In this document: positions 35,908 to 53,632 of the stretch, piece after piece
How positions within the stretch are numbered: the stretch's first letter is position 1
How the letters are laid out: each line of letters begins with the position of its first letter
Origin: Methanomassiliicoccales archaeon
GTDB lineage: Archaea > Thermoplasmatota > Thermoplasmata > RBG-16-68-12 > SOIM01
Direction of reading: 5' to 3'
Length of the DNA stretch: 64,000 nucleotides
Assembly: GCA_004377185.1 (NCBI GenBank)
Contig: SOIM01000012.1
Span: 62,001-126,000 of the forward strand
Position numbers and translations under genes: made by a program
Notes under the pieces: generated by a model
Database searches by the model: none
What the model saw: only the letters and a program-made list of their open reading frames with translations
Told to the model about the DNA's origin: nothing

Positions 35908-37077
35908 CTAGACGACACGTTTCTTTCGGACCTTTTTCAGGGCGACCTTCTTGGGCTTTTTCTCTTCTTCCCCCTCTTCTTCCGCGGGGGGTTCCTCTCC
36001 CTCTTCAGCAGGCGCTTCCTCGCCCTCTTCTTCCAGCCTGTGTCCACAGGCATAGCACATTATCGCGTTGGCACTGAGCATGGTTCCGCAAGCGGGACAA
36101 GGGATCTCCTCTTCGGCACCTTCTTCAGCTGGTGTTTCTTCTTCAGCAGGGGGAGCCTCCTCAGCAGGCGCTTCCTCCGCCGGGGGCGCTTCTTCCCCTT
36201 CTTCTTCCACGAGTTTGTGTCCACACGCGTAGCACATTATGGCATTTGCGCTCAACACGGTCCCACAAGCCGGGCAGGGTATTTCTTCGACCGGAGCTTC
36301 TTCTCCCCCTTCAGCAGGGGGAGCCTCTTCAGCCGGAGCTTCCTCAGCAGGCCCCTCTTCCGCCACTTCCCCCGGTGCTTCTTCAGCTGGTGCTTCTTCC
36401 GCCACTTCCCCCGGTGCTTCCTCAGCAGGTGCCTCCTCAACTGGCATAGCTGGGGCTTCTCCTGGTTCGGCAGACACTCTCGCTCTCAATCCTTCCTCAA
36501 GGGCGAGCAGCTCCTTCTCTTTTTCCATCAAGCTATTACCTTGAGAGATGAACTTCTCCTTTTCTGCATTCAGCTCTTCTTCGAGTTTGACGAGCTCCTT
36601 TTCCCTGTCCACGAGGGTCTGACCTCTCCGGATGTTCCCCTCAAGCACATTCTTCAGTTCTTCCTCCTTTGAAAGGAACTCCTCTTCCCTCGCAACTATT
36701 GAAGCCCGTTTCTGGGTCGCGTCCTCAAGGATCCTTTTGGCCTCTTCTTGAGCTCTCAAGGACTCTTCTTCTCTGGACACTAATGCTTCTTTCTGCCTTG
36801 CAATCTCAGCTTCCCTTTCCGAGAATCCGCTCTCAACCTCTACCAGACGTCTTCGCTCCTCTTCCAACTTGGCTCTTTCAGAATCCAGTCCGGCCTTTTC
36901 TTCCTCGAAGGCTCTTCTGTCTGATTCCCATGCGCCTTTCTCTTCTTCGAAGCGGCTCTTCTCTTCCTCAAATTCCTTCTGTTTTGTTTCAAGCTCGGCT
37001 TCCCGAGCGGCAAGGCTGTCTTCAATTCTCTTAATCTCGTCTGCAAGAGACAATCTTTCTTGGGTCATCTGGACCAT
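35908..37077 (-). CDS. coiled-coil protein with duplicated zinc ribbons
   Basis: About 389 residues. The N-terminal ~200 residues are one long charged coiled coil (EELNAEKEKFISQG, LEEERRRLVEVE). The C-terminal half alternates Ala/Glu/Pro-rich stretches with two nearly identical zinc ribbons (CPACGTVLSANAIMCYACGH and the same with M for V). It ends in a basic segment (KKVALKKVRKKRVV). No membrane segment. The frame is open to 37158, overlapping the KaiC-like gene; ATG 37077 or 37068 fits the start of the coiled coil and a TATA-like element near 37130. The near-identity of the two ribbons and linkers points to recent internal duplication. Function unknown. Confidence 0.78.
   Translation of the reverse strand: MVQMTQERLSLADEIKRIEDSLAAREAELETKQKEFEEEKSRFEEEKGAWESDRRAFEEEKAGLDSERAKLEEERRRLVEVESGFSEREAEIARQKEALVSREEESLRAQEEAKRILEDATQKRASIVAREEEFLSKEEELKNVLEGNIRRGQTLVDREKELVKLEEELNAEKEKFISQGNSLMEKEKELLALEEGLRARVSAEPGEAPAMPVEEAPAEEAPGEVAEEAPAEEAPGEVAEEGPAEEAPAEEAPPAEGGEEAPVEEIPCPACGTVLSANAIMCYACGHKLVEEEGEEAPPAEEAPAEEAPPAEEETPAEEGAEEEIPCPACGTMLSANAIMCYACGHRLEEEGEEAPAEEGEEPPAEEEGEEEKKPKKVALKKVRKKRVV
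36130..36460 (-). repeat. Ala/Glu/Pro-coding low-complexity repeats with duplicated zinc-ribbon block
   Basis: Short in-frame units encoding EEAPAEEAP and EEAPGEVA recur, and the zinc-ribbon-coding block around 36030-36095 is repeated around 36212-36280. These are tandem duplications inside the coiled-coil gene. Confidence 0.7.
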
Positions 37078-37144
37078 CCCCTGGATGGAGTGTGAAGTAC
37101 TCGATTTGCGAGGACATGAATCCAATTGGATAAATATCTTTTGT

Positions 37145-37936
37145 TCATACTTCGCCACTCTCGAATATTGGACCCAGCACGGTCATTCCACCTCTTCCCA
37201 GGACAATGGCGTGCTTCTCCATGCTGTGTTCACAAGCTCTCATTTTCTCCACTCGGAGATAACGAACCAGTTTTCCTCTGGTTCTATCAAGACCGAGGTC
37301 TATGATACCGTCAACAAGAAATCCTTCGTTACCCAATAATTGAGATTCCCCTCCTATCGATCGCTCCATGACCACCAAGGAAACGAGGTTGTTGTCCCTC
37401 AGCATTTTGAAGAAATAGAACATCTGCCTCCGCATATCCTTCACATCTTCCATGAGCGAATACAGCGCCCCAAGAGAATCCAAGGCGAACATGACGAAAT
37501 TGTCACCGTATATCCGTTTGAAATGCTCGATCATCCTCTGTACGAACTCCAGGTAGTTGGTTGCTTCCGACGGTTCAAGCACCTCGTCGATTTCCCTCAG
37601 GTCAGTGAAGTCAGAGATCTGCATGTTCTCGGGGATATATACCTCGAGACTCCTCATGTTGGTCAGATGACTCTCTACCGTTTCCTCAAGCGTGGTATAG
37701 AGCCCGAACTTTCCCGTCATCTTCAAGTATCTAGCCATGAGGGTGTAGCAGAAACTGGTTTTCATGGAGCCTGGAGGACCGGTGACCAGGATTACTTTAG
37801 GAGCTTCGATATCAGTTCTGAAAACCTTGTCGAACCCCTTTATCGAATCTCTCAACATGTTGCTACACTCAGTCCCGAATATGTCATGCATAGAAGGAAA
37901 TGGATTTAACTTTATCGATTGTGTTATCCTCCACAT
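37145..37936 (-). CDS. KaiC-like RecA-fold ATPase
   Basis: The 263-residue protein has one KaiC/RadA-type domain. Walker A is GPPGSMKT at 53-60, the strand FVMFALDSLGALYSLM provides Walker B, and ERSIGG resembles the KaiC-family active loop. A Glu pair in YTTLEETVESH matches the family's catalytic carboxylates. Stand-alone archaeal KaiC-like proteins often act in signalling to motility or chemotaxis; no target is shown here. The ATG at 37936 is used; an internal ATG at 37891 (MHDIFGTE) is an alternative. A symmetric AAATATTT element near 37973 could drive this gene and the divergent zinc-ribbon gene. Confidence 0.85.
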   Translation of the reverse strand: MWRITQSIKLNPFPSMHDIFGTECSNMLRDSIKGFDKVFRTDIEAPKVILVTGPPGSMKTSFCYTLMARYLKMTGKFGLYTTLEETVESHLTNMRSLEVYIPENMQISDFTDLREIDEVLEPSEATNYLEFVQRMIEHFKRIYGDNFVMFALDSLGALYSLMEDVKDMRRQMFYFFKMLRDNNLVSLVVMERSIGGESQLLGNEGFLVDGIIDLGLDRTRGKLVRYLRVEKMRACEHSMEKHAIVLGRGGMTVLGPIFESGEV

Positions 37937-37982: not shown

Positions 37983-38033
37983 TTGAGAATCCTAATAGCC
38001 AGAAATCCGAGGCCAATCGCTGAGAGGACTTCT

Positions 38034-39533
38034 TTGAAGAGCAAGGATAAGAAGACATGTCCAGTCTGCGACGCAGCAGTTGATGTCAGTGCTCGAAAGT
38101 GTCCTTCTTGCGACACTGATCTGACCCTTTTCGACATTGACATGGATGGAGAGCTTGACATTGACAAGATAACCATCAGGGACGACAAGTCGATAGATGA
38201 CATACTGTCATCCATAGTTGGAAAGGACGAGTCCTCGAAGCTTCTGGAGGATATCAAGACCATCGGCGAGGAAAGTGAGATGGACGCAACCACAATTGAG
38301 GCAAAAGAAGCTGAGGCCAGCGAGGCTGCCGAGGTCGAAGAGGCGGGTGTGTTCGACTGTCCATCTTGTGGGGCAAAGGTTGGAGTGGATCAGGCGTCAT
38401 GCCCGAGCTGTGGCGTTGAGTTCGAAGGGGAAGGGGTGGAAGAGTTCGAGTGCCCAATCTGCAGTTCCCCAGTTTCTGCCGACGCTGACAGCTGTCCCAA
38501 TTGCGGCGTCAGATTCGAAACTCGCGAGGAAGAGGAAGCTGCTCCTGAGCCAGAAGTCGCACCTGAGGGCAAACCAGAAGTGCCGCCTGAACCGAAACCA
38601 GAGGCCGCACCTGAGGTTGAACCTGGGGTGAAACCTGAAGAAGCACCTCCTCCAGAACTGCCAAAGGAAGAACCGCCTCCAGTCCCACCTGAAGAGCCCG
38701 TCCCAACGCTCTCGGAAAGACTGCTCGCAGAGAGGGAGGAAAGGCTCAAGAAACAACCCCTTGAGACCTATGAAGGACAGAATCTGTACAAAGTCTTGCC
38801 CACACTCGTGAATCAGATTAAATCCATGCTGGCAATCGCTAAGAAGCACGGTATTGATATCGGCCGTAGCAAGAAGATGATAAGCCAGGCGGTCGCGGCC
38901 AACAAGGCAAGGGATATGGAGGGAGCTGTTCGAATTATTCAACAGGCCAAACGGACCCTTAATGATTCCTTCACCAAAGAGATAGCGAACGACGTAGAGG
39001 GCTTCGTAGAGGATGTCAAGGAAGCAAAGAAAGTCGGTTGTGACGTGGCTGCGTCAGAGGAACTGATAAGGGAAGCCATAACCGCCCTCAGAGATGAGGA
39101 CTATGAGGTCGCCATTTCGGATTTGGAAGCCGCGACGAAGGAACTCGACAGGACCGCAGGGAACTACCGTCAAGCCAGCCAGTCATTGGAGGAAGCCAGC
39201 CAGCTCGTAAAGTCCGCCGGTGCCCTGGGAATTGACACAGAAGAGGCTGTTGGGCTGATAGCTGAAGGAAAAGAAGCACTGAACAGGAAGGGTTGGGAGA
39301 CAGCAGCCCTGCTCGCAAAAAGAAGTACTGAGGGTTTGGCCAAAGCTCTCCCTGATGTTCTCCGCGAAGAGATGAAAAAGGCGAAGGATTCGTTGCTTGA
39401 ACTGAAGATGAAGGGTGGGGACCTCCGAAGACCAATAGGCATCTACAAACAGGCAAGTCTTTCAATGCAAAAAGGGGATTACTCAGGGGTCCTGAAGCAT
39501 CTGGGGGCCTTCAAAAAGGAAGTCTCAGGCTAG
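38034..39533 (+). CDS. triple zinc-ribbon protein with helical-hairpin repeats
   Basis: About 499 residues. Three zinc ribbons (CPVCDA...CPSCDT, CPSCGA...CPSCGV, CPICSS...CPNCGV) occupy roughly residues 5-170, with an acidic segment between the first and second. A Pro/Glu-rich linker (~175-250) leads to about four helical hairpins of the same type as those in the 1491-residue protein at 211-4686 (AKKHGIDIGRSKKMISQA...AKKVGCDVAASEELIREA). No membrane segment. The frame begins at 37983, but a TATA box at 37973-37982 places transcription after that codon. TTG 38034, after GAGAGG, fits better. Function unknown; ribbon plus solenoid suggests a scaffold. Confidence 0.78.
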   Translation: MKSKDKKTCPVCDAAVDVSARKCPSCDTDLTLFDIDMDGELDIDKITIRDDKSIDDILSSIVGKDESSKLLEDIKTIGEESEMDATTIEAKEAEASEAAEVEEAGVFDCPSCGAKVGVDQASCPSCGVEFEGEGVEEFECPICSSPVSADADSCPNCGVRFETREEEEAAPEPEVAPEGKPEVPPEPKPEAAPEVEPGVKPEEAPPPELPKEEPPPVPPEEPVPTLSERLLAEREERLKKQPLETYEGQNLYKVLPTLVNQIKSMLAIAKKHGIDIGRSKKMISQAVAANKARDMEGAVRIIQQAKRTLNDSFTKEIANDVEGFVEDVKEAKKVGCDVAASEELIREAITALRDEDYEVAISDLEAATKELDRTAGNYRQASQSLEEASQLVKSAGALGIDTEEAVGLIAEGKEALNRKGWETAALLAKRSTEGLAKALPDVLREEMKKAKDSLLELKMKGGDLRRPIGIYKQASLSMQKGDYSGVLKHLGAFKKEVSG

Positions 39534-39538
39534 ATCTC

Positions 39539-41605
39539 TCACAAGAAGCTTATCACTTCCGTCTCTCTCTCCAGGATTTTCAGTTCCCTCTCTTTGAGTG
39601 TCTTGGGACTGCTGGAAATCAGGAGTACGCATTTGCTTTCTGAGACCTCGTCAATCAGTTGTCTGAGGAAGCGTAGGACTGCCTCGAAAGAGTTGTTGCT
39701 TATCAGGTATTCCAGGCCGTCGAGCAATATGGTGCCCTCCTCTTCCTCCTTGATGAACTCTTCTATGACAAAAACCAGACGTTCAAGAACTGGGGGGAGT
39801 ATCTCTTCAGTGGAACTCTCCCTATCCGTCAACCATATTATTCTTCCTTTCCCCACATCAAACTTCTCTCTGGCTCTTTTGGGATTGGTCCTCGTGATTA
39901 TGATCCCGTTCTTGCCGTGTCTCAGACTCCCCCTGAATACCTTGAAGCAGTTCAGAGGTCGGTCCTCCTCCAACAGATACGTTCTTCCGTTCTTCAGTTC
40001 TTCGAGGGACTCCTCAACCTTGGCTTCCCATTTGGTGTATTCCTCTTCACTTATGAGGTCCTTTAGGACCTCCCTGGCCATGCCCTCGGTGATGGGTATG
40101 TCCATCAAGGAGGAGAAAGCAACAACCCGGTTGAGGGCACCTTCCAGCTCTCGGATGTTCTCCGTCACCAGGGTCGCTATGAGAGACAGCACATCACTCC
40201 CCACATCGACGCCCGCCTCTCTTGCCTTTCTTCTGAGAATGGCGATCCTTGTCCTCATCTCGGGGGGCTGGATATCAGCTATGAGACCCGCCTCGAACCT
40301 GGAAACAAGCCTGTCCTGAAGGTCAGGTATCTCCTTCGGAGGCCTATCTGATGTAAGGGCGATTTGCCTGTTGGCCTCGTAAAGGGCATTGAAGGTGTGG
40401 AACAGCTCCTCTTGCACGTCCATTCTTCCCTCCAGGAACTGAGCATCATCCAAGAGAAAGACGTCCACGTTCCGGTAGAGCTTCCGAAATTCGTTAAGCG
40501 TTCCATCCTTCACTGCCTCCTTGTAGGCGTTACTGAAACTCTCAGTTGTCAAGTATAGGACGTTAGATTTGGAGTTCTTCTCAATGATGAAGTTGCCGAT
40601 GGCACTCAGCAGGTGAGTCTTTCCCAACCCAGGGCCGCTCGTTACGAAAAGAGGATTGTAAGCCTTGTAGGGAGTCCGTGCAACCGCAAGACAGGCAGCG
40701 TAGGCAAATCGATTGCTGGGTCCGACCACAAAATTGTCAAAAACGAAGTGGGGAATGAGGTTCGTTCTTTCATCCCTCTCCACGGCCTCTTCCGGGATCA
40801 TTTCGGCTTCCGCTCCCGCCTTCGACCGATGTCTGAGGATCATCTCGTAGACCTGATCTGCACTTTTCTCAACATCCTCCTCAATAACTTCTGGTTCCGC
40901 CTCCGCCTCAACTTCTGGCTCTGCTTCCACCTCGGCCTCTGCCCCTTCCTCCTTCGGCCTCTCCTTCTCCATTGCAATTCTGTCTTCCAGGATCACGATG
41001 TCTCCCTGTATCTCCCGAAGAGATGAAGGATCGTTCAGGCGGGATTCTATCTCCTCTATGTCAAGTTTGAATTTCTCAGTCTCCAGTGTTTGTAGCCTTT
41101 CCCGGATCTCCTCAAGACGAGCTGTCCTTTCCCCGTAGTCCGCAAATCTCTCCTCGGCACTTTCGATATCACCCATAAGCGTGCTCTCCAACTCAGTGAC
41201 AATGTAGCCTGCGGACCTCCACGCCTCCATCTTCTCTTCCAATTCCTGGAATCTCGGGTCCCTCTCCTCTTCCCCTTTCTCTATCAATTCGGCCAGGGCA
41301 TCCACGTCAATCTTCGCGTGAAGCCTGATTACACATTCCTTTCTGTAGGAATCTGCCCATATCTTCTTGACTGATTCCTCGCCTCGGGTTTGCCCATCTT
41401 TGTCCACATAAAGGAAACTGTGGGGCTTCCCAGTCTTGATCACTATAAATCCCTTGGTTGTATGATCAGCTTGCTCCATCGCTGTGGATACATATCCGTC
41501 AAAAGAGTATTTCTTGAGGTCGAGTAGGAGTTTTTTGAAGGAACCTGGTCCGCCCTCTATGGTACGGACTATCTTTCCCTCGGGTAATGTGAATTTCTTG
41601 GCCAA
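39539..41605 (-). CDS. bacterial-type DnaA AAA+ domain fused to DUF835
   Basis: About 688 residues from TTG 41605 (ATG 41659 is an alternative giving 706). An N-terminal alpha/beta domain (~5-110), a coiled coil (~115-215) and an acidic linker (EAEVEAEPEVEAEAEPE) precede a AAA+ module at ~283-515. This module matches bacterial DnaA closely: FDNFVVGPSNRFAYAA, Walker A GPGLGKTH, Walker B LLDDAQFLEGR, TSDRPPKEIP, arginine finger in RLVSRFEAGLIADIQPP, and sensor 2 in NIRELEGALNRVVAFSSL. Domain IV, which binds DnaA boxes, is absent. Its place is taken by a DUF835 domain (~535-685, ending LISSSPKTLKERELKILERE). Archaea normally initiate replication with Orc1/Cdc6, so a role in initiation should not be assumed. 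Acquisition of the AAA+ part from bacteria is the likeliest origin. Confidence 0.9.
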   Translation of the reverse strand: MAKKFTLPEGKIVRTIEGGPGSFKKLLLDLKKYSFDGYVSTAMEQADHTTKGFIVIKTGKPHSFLYVDKDGQTRGEESVKKIWADSYRKECVIRLHAKIDVDALAELIEKGEEERDPRFQELEEKMEAWRSAGYIVTELESTLMGDIESAEERFADYGERTARLEEIRERLQTLETEKFKLDIEEIESRLNDPSSLREIQGDIVILEDRIAMEKERPKEEGAEAEVEAEPEVEAEAEPEVIEEDVEKSADQVYEMILRHRSKAGAEAEMIPEEAVERDERTNLIPHFVFDNFVVGPSNRFAYAACLAVARTPYKAYNPLFVTSGPGLGKTHLLSAIGNFIIEKNSKSNVLYLTTESFSNAYKEAVKDGTLNEFRKLYRNVDVFLLDDAQFLEGRMDVQEELFHTFNALYEANRQIALTSDRPPKEIPDLQDRLVSRFEAGLIADIQPPEMRTRIAILRRKAREAGVDVGSDVLSLIATLVTENIRELEGALNRVVAFSSLMDIPITEGMAREVLKDLISEEEYTKWEAKVEESLEELKNGRTYLLEEDRPLNCFKVFRGSLRHGKNGIIITRTNPKRAREKFDVGKGRIIWLTDRESSTEEILPPVLERLVFVIEEFIKEEEEGTILLDGLEYLISNNSFEAVLRFLRQLIDEVSESKCVLLISSSPKTLKERELKILERETEVISFL

Positions 41606-41718
41606 GACTCCTACCCAGAAAGTGAATGTTCTTGTCGTTAAAAACCTTTCTGATATCATCGGACCCAGCCTTCAGAAAGCCATGCGAGCCTTATCCTGCG
41701 AAATGGAATCTTTCGAAA

Positions 41719-52975: not shown

Positions 52976-53632
52976 ATGTTCTCTGACCAAGAATCTGGGA
53001 AAAGGAACGGGACCCGTTGCGCCCCGTCGACAGACAGTGGTGATCAGGCACGAGCACACGCCCTGGATAGGAGTGGGCCGCTTATCAACAGAGAACCTTT
53101 GGCGGATAAGAAAGCCACTGCAAGTGAACTCCCAGATGTTGAGAAATCCTCTATGTATCTTGTAGAAGAGGAAAGATCGGAGAAATCGTATGAGCTATTC
53201 GAGAAATCCCTTGCCAGGGGGCTTCCTGGCCTCTGTGCGACACGTGTCTACCCCGAGATCTTGAGAAAGAGATATGACTTTGGCGATTGCGCCATGCTCT
53301 GGCTTTCAAACGCAGGAAAGGAGGATTCCATCAGGCCCCGTGATCTGGAAAGGCTCAGCCTGCTCCTGGAACAGTTCATTTCGACAAGAAAAGGGGTTGT
53401 TCTCGTTGACGGCATAGAATACCTAATCACAAACAACGATTTCGTGACCGTCCTCAGACTAATTCAGAGCTTGAGGGACCAGATTGCGATGAATCTGGCC
53501 ATTATGATAATCTCCCTCAACCCTTCTACCCTTGGGTTCCAGGAACTGAATCTGCTGGAACGGGAAATGGATTCCATCCTGAGGATGTGCTCTCCGACCA
53601 CACATGGCCAGCAAGATTTTCAAGGTCGATAA
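52976..53632 (+). CDS. stand-alone DUF835 protein
   Basis: The 218-residue protein has about 65 variable N-terminal residues and a DUF835 domain from YLVEEERSEKSYELFEKSL to the end. Family landmarks are LWLSNAG, VVLVDGIEYLITNNDF, and IISLNPSTLGFQELNLLERE. The domain looks like a degenerate RecA/KaiC fold without a P-loop and is common in euryarchaea. It is the same domain that ends the DnaA-like protein at 39539-41605. Its function is not established; a protein-interaction or signalling role is likely. A Ras-like GTPase gene lies 0.5 kb downstream. Confidence 0.85.
   Translation: MFSDQESGKRNGTRCAPSTDSGDQARAHALDRSGPLINREPLADKKATASELPDVEKSSMYLVEEERSEKSYELFEKSLARGLPGLCATRVYPEILRKRYDFGDCAMLWLSNAGKEDSIRPRDLERLSLLLEQFISTRKGVVLVDGIEYLITNNDFVTVLRLIQSLRDQIAMNLAIMIISLNPSTLGFQELNLLEREMDSILRMCSPTTHGQQDFQGR

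Follow-up and report, generated by a model that had tools for sequence, protein, structure and literature searches.

The AAA+ domain encoded by an archaeal gene in the window, by which we mean the whole 64,000-nucleotide stretch of DNA analyzed here, is, judged from its sequence, a descendant of bacterial DnaA, and in the encoded protein DUF835 takes the place of the DNA-reading domain IV. DnaA is regarded as the hallmark bacterial initiator. The gene is one of a family that spans the phylum and includes fused proteins, split genes and membrane-anchored proteins, more than the initial annotation of this DNA had seen. On balance, we favor the reading that a DnaA motor without domain IV was recruited as an ATP-timed oligomerizing hub of KaiC/DUF835 signaling, and not as a replication initiator.

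The relevant features of the window are listed below; residue numbers of the window protein refer to the 706-residue stop-to-stop frame (ORF 39539-41659, minus strand).

39539..41605, minus strand: dnaA-AAA+/DUF835 gene, TTG start
41264..41587, minus strand: N-terminal alpha/beta domain, residues ~25-132, present in fused and split forms
40961..41257, minus strand: helical region, residues ~135-233, from the AlphaFold2 model
40784..40945, minus strand: acidic linker, residues 239-292, with 19 D/E and 4 K/R in 54
40025..40774, minus strand: DnaA-type AAA+ module equivalent to domain III, residues ~296-545, from profiles, alignment and fold search
39542..39994, minus strand: DUF835, residues ~556-706, from Pfam
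37983..39533, plus strand: zinc-ribbon/helical protein, a convergent neighbor recurring in the class, from Pfam and locus comparison
37145..37936, minus strand: KaiC-family ATPase with Walker A GPPGSMKT, whose orthologue lies near the dnaA-like gene
35908..37158, minus strand: coiled-coil/zinc-ribbon gene overlapping the KaiC gene, with homologues clustered in 7 examined loci including the window

Conservation with relatives sets in at about residue 22-25, and the TTG start proposed at 41605 is correct or close to it. The conserved part opens with a globular N-terminal domain that was overlooked in the initial annotation. Its similarity to DUF2226 is weak and under the family cut-off (E 0.028 for the window protein, 7e-4 for its relative L157), and a fold search among solved structures returned nothing convincing for it (best E 0.042). 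The coiled coil previously proposed ahead of the AAA+ part is modeled by AlphaFold2 as several separate helices instead; the acidic linker proposed for the same region is borne out by its composition. The AlphaFold2 model of the window protein has a mean pLDDT of 84.1 and a pTM of 0.43, so that single domains are credible and their mutual arrangement is not. At the C-terminal end, DUF835 (PF05763) matches residues 573-699 with 109.1 bits, passing its cut-off of 33.1; no Walker A is visible in it, and LLDGLEYL lies near the place of Walker B. The window also holds a further DUF835-type ORF (52976-53632, plus strand), which matches G000:C42:115093-115578.

The Pfam model Bac_DnaA matches residues 303-461 with 203.1 bits, and, together with the 109.1 bits of DUF835, this upholds the original description of a complete bacterial DnaA AAA+ module joined to DUF835. 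The DnaA model TIGR00362 covers residues 257-540 with 334.6 bits, narrowly missing its equivalog cut-off of 343.9. Scores of other AAA+ families are much lower: 89.1 bits for Hda (cut-off 194.8), 51.6 for IstB NF038214 (cut-off 200) and 21.2 for DnaC NF005931 (cut-off 357). The window protein does pass the cut-off of Pfam IstB_IS21 (34.4 vs 24.1), yet with a score far under that of Bac_DnaA, and a true full-length DnaA (L032) likewise passes it. Cdc6 families are absent among the Pfam and NCBIfam matches of the window protein, and a profile of the module gave 2.6 and 2.8 bits on two archaeal Cdc6 genes. Membership in DnaC/IstB, Hda or Cdc6 is ruled out by these profile scores. Similarly, a profile of 41 family members run against sequences of solved structures gave 389 bits for Bacillus subtilis DnaA, followed by Hda (59), DnaI (44), IstB (38) and DnaC (27). 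The best chain in a Foldseek search was domain III of B. subtilis DnaA (8bv3; 56% identity, TMt 0.96, rmsd 1.2). Thus, a grouping with DnaC/IstB or Cdc6, which would have spoken against the initial annotation, was not found, and the module resembles DnaA domain III in profile score as well as in fold.

Alignment with Escherichia coli DnaA places K178 at K347, D235/D236 at D404/D405, R281 at R450, R285 at R454 and R334 at R503, all of them kept. We take these residues of the window protein to be the Walker A lysine (K347), the Walker B aspartates (D404/D405), the box VII arginine (R450), the arginine finger (R454) and the sensor II arginine (R503). The earlier claim that the residues for ATP binding, hydrolysis and oligomerization are retained is therefore sound for this protein. 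In each of three comparisons, no other portion of the gene was as well conserved as the AAA+ domain, in which the window gene differs from its G002 relative at 5% of second and 57% of third codon positions.

Domains I and IV of DnaA are missing. Neither Bac_DnaA_C (PF08299) nor DnaA_N (PF11638) matched the window protein at E 0.1; L032 shows DnaA_N in the same kind of Pfam scan. A domain IV profile built from 26 bacterial DnaAs scored 105-142 bits in every one of them and at most 3.5 bits on the archaeal AAA+ genes (52 rows holding 48 distinct genes, four genes being held in two loci). The absence of domain IV, proposed from the window gene, extends to 48 of 48 distinct archaeal genes tested. 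A DnaA-box-binding helix-turn-helix in the C-terminal region was looked for by profile and not found.

AAA+ positions were matched in 36 of 37 genomes of the window's order (its own genome included), some of the matches being partial. This breadth, the E value of 4e-60 and the pattern of codon positions 2 and 3 together exclude a chance match. A count of 41 of 41 results when DUF835-only matches are included; G018 (76% complete) has matches of that kind only. We then surveyed 389 evenly drawn genomes of the phylum, which is Thermoplasmatota as inferred from the positions of named rows in the tree. TIGR00362 at 1e-20 matched 51 of them: 39 strongly, 11 weakly (74-84 bits, families f41/f49), and G372. 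The last carries L032 (G372:C23), a DnaA of the bacterial type that is full-length and has both domain I and domain IV; it is probably contamination. The diverged AAA+ protein of L177, used as a query at 1e-12, matched 87 genomes. The two lists share 18 genomes, and their union holds 120, or 119 without G372. The module is thus found in 119 of 389 genomes, as 39 strong and 80 diverged split forms (11 also matched by TIGR00362, 69 via L177 only), the split layout having been checked in 14 of these 80 f41/f49 genomes. A single-genome event is ruled out by the order-wide and phylum-wide matches. Named carriers among the matches listed are Thermoplasmata and Methanomassiliicoccales MAGs (L062-L064). 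In the control genomes TIGR00362 matched 10 of 14, the 10 named being bacteria, and no archaeal control at 1e-20; the looser PF00308 (Bac_DnaA) exceeds its cut-off in three archaeal controls as well. Viral contigs yielded 16 relatives, with matches confined to the AAA+ positions of the query and DUF835 in none.

Several architectures make up the family. Type A, to which the window gene belongs, comprises the N-terminal domain, helices, AAA+ and DUF835, with a CxxC zinc-ribbon-like stretch in some members. In the split form, these parts are shared out between two genes of one strand, the first encoding the N-terminal domain plus DUF835 and the second AAA+, with stop-to-stop frames that overlap or lie at most 26 bases apart. 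This layout was seen in 14 of 14 f41/f49 genomes examined, a non-random pick of three from TIGR00362 matches and eleven from L177 matches. Four split AAA+ proteins scored 28-62 bits with Bac_DnaA (cut-off 23) in a Pfam scan, and 11 split-form genomes attain TIGR00362 at 1e-20. Because PF00308 also matches archaeal controls, naming the split forms DnaA depends on TIGR00362 and on shared partner domains, which makes theirs the weaker assignment. In L173, an AAA+ gene has a DUF835 gene directly behind it. The strongest indication that the N-terminal domain, DUF835 and AAA+ would work together is that they recur, fused in a single gene in one class and divided over two adjacent genes in other families.

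Type B (f35, f51) consists of ~390-440 residues of AAA+ with an acidic tail and lacks DUF835. Type C (L171, L178) has a hydrophobic start, an ectodomain that resembles fibronectin but scores below the Pfam cut-offs (23.1 and 16.8 bits), a transmembrane segment by hydropathy, and AAA+. Type D combines the N-terminal domain and/or a long helical stretch with AAA+, and in some members with zinc ribbons, in up to 1407 residues. At L172:9975-14198, L174:6834-10589 and L183:664-4416 the AAA+ domain sits on proteins of 1250-1407 residues whose N-terminal domain is again that of type A (22-58 bits); the L172 protein (also listed as L033) has zinc-ribbon and weak EzrA-like similarity, both below cut-offs. 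Six forms that are all free of DUF835 (L047, L049, L051, L053, L054 and L173) have a short, amphipathic-looking basic N-terminus (e.g. MGLFDWFKK), perhaps a membrane- or partner-binding segment.

A quick tree with long branches, the one of the Hda root being very long, places most archaeal modules among bacterial DnaAs and the type B rows and L183 outside the bacterial rows. A careful tree without long branches has two changes of archaeal label; in AU tests neither a single archaeal clade (p 0.669) nor a single type-A clade (p 0.663) is rejected. The bacterial sample in these trees is skewed toward Actinomycetota and Bacillota. The simplest reading would be one early capture of the bacterial DnaA motor that diversified later; several separate captures of the module by archaea would be a less simple one.

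Within the class, we examined gene neighborhoods at 28 type-A loci, picked non-randomly from matches and with flanks of unequal length. A zinc-ribbon/helical gene lies directly downstream in convergent orientation (gap -10 to 101 bases) with at least 92 bits in 19 loci and with a weak score (34-50 bits) in 3, which makes 22 of 27 testable loci; the profile was made from eight of the counted genes, which match by construction, and L155 was left out since the locus ends too early. The neighbor is missing in L160, L161, L164, L180 and L064, and also in L165 and L166, the two type-A loci that do not belong to the class. An orthologous KaiC-like ATPase (at least 440 bits, with a profile built from nine of the linked genes) occurs within 8.2 kb in 14 of the 28 loci; in 10 of them it is downstream at a distance of 1.5-2 kb, and in the other 4 it is upstream at 6.3-8.2 kb. 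The KaiC-like ATPase of G000, the genome of the window, has 15 other relatives there, the best at 91 bits vs 514 for itself, so the linked KaiC is a distinct orthologue. The 14 KaiC-linked loci span eight coded families and L062, and their synteny is partly inherited. L171 (8451-11953) may hold a membrane signaling cassette: genes for the transmembrane DnaA AAA+ protein, a KaiC ATPase and a 7TM-DUF835 protein stand in this order, closely spaced on one strand. No KaiC was found around type B genes (L168 scanned; conserved in L167 and L169), where the neighbors are metabolic, methyltransferase and TPR protein genes.

How the module would act as a hub can be sketched from DnaA. ATP binding would promote a DnaA-like head-to-tail assembly via the arginine finger; the state of the assembly might be set or read by DUF835, the N-terminal domain, the neighboring KaiC-like ATPase and the zinc-ribbon protein; and the assembly would serve as an ATP-timed signaling hub, membrane-located in some relatives. 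We infer the signaling output from the adjacent-gene pairs, the L171 cassette, L173 and the linked KaiC orthologues, all of which count for this reading. Against it count type B, which has neither DUF835 nor KaiC in the examined loci, and L165/L166, with their Rad51/RadB-type neighbor and missing zinc-ribbon gene, as do the members that have lost the arginine finger or sensor II, the weaker DnaA assignment of the split genes and the failure of the fold search for the N-terminal domain to give a convincing match. Our own comparison of DUF835 with the neighboring KaiC by hhalign was weak (E 0.031, probability 1.6), so the link between the two rests on published work and gene linkage; FlaH NF004723 gave 1.9e-4 on the window protein, below its cut-off. 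The initial annotation had suggested a repurposed ATPase switch in signaling or chromosome biology; architectures and neighborhoods favor the former, and the latter has become the less favored half. A more ambitious version, which we put forward only tentatively, is a phylum-wide signaling polymer in which membrane or cytosolic DUF835/KaiC inputs would switch an ATP-dependent DnaA-type filament that has no part in starting replication; the DnaA fold would then have had a second, DNA-independent career.

Alternatively, although we think it unlikely, the protein might be a structural scaffold, an AAA+ polymer in a cytoskeleton- or envelope-linked assembly, with ATPase activity secondary and with DUF835 and the helical regions in the role of adaptors. 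The long forms of 1250-1407 residues, the transmembrane forms L171/L178 (by hydropathy) and the amphipathic-looking basic starts of type B and L173 would fit such a role, as would the arginine fingers that have degenerated in several lineages. In our comparison of residues (48 archaeal and 26 bacterial rows, E. coli DnaA numbering), class-level type-A rows have R285 in 14/20, R281 in 13/20 and R334 in 15/20; arginine is absent at R285 in the other 6, of which 3 have lysine. The split rows have arginine at R285 in 0/3 and at R281 and R334 in 1/3 each. With the arginine finger or sensor II lost in some members, ATP-driven assembly is not general to the family, and the degenerate fingers suggest that in split and some class-level lineages the module may be a scaffold and not an ATPase. 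The window's order, however, keeps the ATP site in full (Walker A K178/T179, Walker B D235/D236, R281, R285 and R334 in 11/11 rows), and the linkage to KaiC and 7TM-DUF835 better suits signaling.

It is also improbable, in our estimate, that the protein takes part in DNA transactions, its module loading on single- or double-stranded DNA via the AAA+ pore or partners in replication control, repair or the nucleoid, like Hda or a helicase loader. DnaA ancestry speaks for this, as does the Rad51/RadB-type gene that follows the dnaA-like gene at L165:3575-6867 and L166:7346-10987 (type A, outside the class) and overlaps it by four bases in L165; the label comes from a Pfam scan of the L165 gene, with which the L166 gene clusters. 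Further points in its favor are isoleucine at the V211 site in 8/20 class-level type-A rows and lysine at the H-motif K243 position in 11/20. In the window's order, however, two sites that touch single-stranded DNA in DnaA, V211 and R245, are altered. The V211 site, I/V in 26/26 bacteria, is so in 0/11 rows (K380 in the window protein). At the R245 site, an acidic residue stands in 11/11 rows and in 0/26 bacteria (D414 in the window protein), even if R245 alone is not diagnostic, arginine itself occurring in only 6/26 bacteria. The absence of domain IV and the scores of 89 bits for Hda vs 335 for DnaA weigh against this role as well; the window holds 0 DnaA boxes (TTATNCACA) vs 1.04 expected, so their absence says little.

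That the protein is a second replication initiator beside Orc1/Cdc6, for example at a distinct origin, is very unlikely: its ancestor is the bacterial initiator, but domains I and IV are both absent, and Orc1/Cdc6 is present in G000 and in most other carriers. Orc1/Cdc6 (TIGR02928, 1e-20) was matched in 385/389 genomes, with two matches in G000, and the DnaA-type module is therefore not a replacement initiator. Orc1/Cdc6 is matched in 118/120 genomes of the module-hit union, G000 included; G067 and G091 (73% and 79% complete), two of the four genomes lacking an Orc1/Cdc6 match, carry the module. Assembly artefact or bacterial contamination, of which the ordinary full-length DnaA of G372 is probably a case, is refuted for the window gene, with next to no probability left, by orthologues with recurring neighbors in many separate assemblies, a fused archaeal domain and no domain IV.

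PMC5333045 describes archaea as using Orc1/Cdc6 for replication. In the openly available literature searched, we found no description of an archaeal DnaA. If the favored reading is true, a DnaA motor minus its DNA-reading part, retained in much of an archaeal phylum and tied to KaiC-type signaling, would imply that the assembly cycle is separable from replication, and the family would offer a natural system to part ATP-driven assembly from DNA binding. There is also an annotation hazard, since genes of this family come near the DnaA equivalog cut-off and can be misnamed replication initiators.

Compared with known systems, the archaeal module shares AAA+ motifs and fold with domain III of bacterial DnaA and is 42-54% identical to bacterial DnaAs among the matches listed. 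Bacterial DnaA has domains I and IV, whereas the archaeal protein is without both and carries DUF835 behind AAA+; in the window's order the V211 and R245 sites are altered, and Orc1/Cdc6 coexists. Hda shares with it a DnaA-type AAA+ without domain IV, but the archaeal module is far nearer to DnaA and has the N-terminal domain, the helical region and DUF835 in addition. IstB, DnaC and DnaI are distant AAA+ kin with much lower scores (IstB 34-52 bits, DnaC/DnaI 21-28). According to PMC5847659, DUF835 is an inactivated KaiC domain (iKaiC) that occurs in response regulators, KaiC ATPases are hubs of archaeal signaling, and archaeal signaling is a hybrid of bacterial components and KaiC machinery. 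With the DUF835/iKaiC signaling proteins of that paper (REC-DUF835 etc.) the archaeal protein has DUF835 in common, here also beside KaiC-like ATPases; where those proteins have a receiver or PAS partner, it carries a DnaA AAA+ motor on the same chain.
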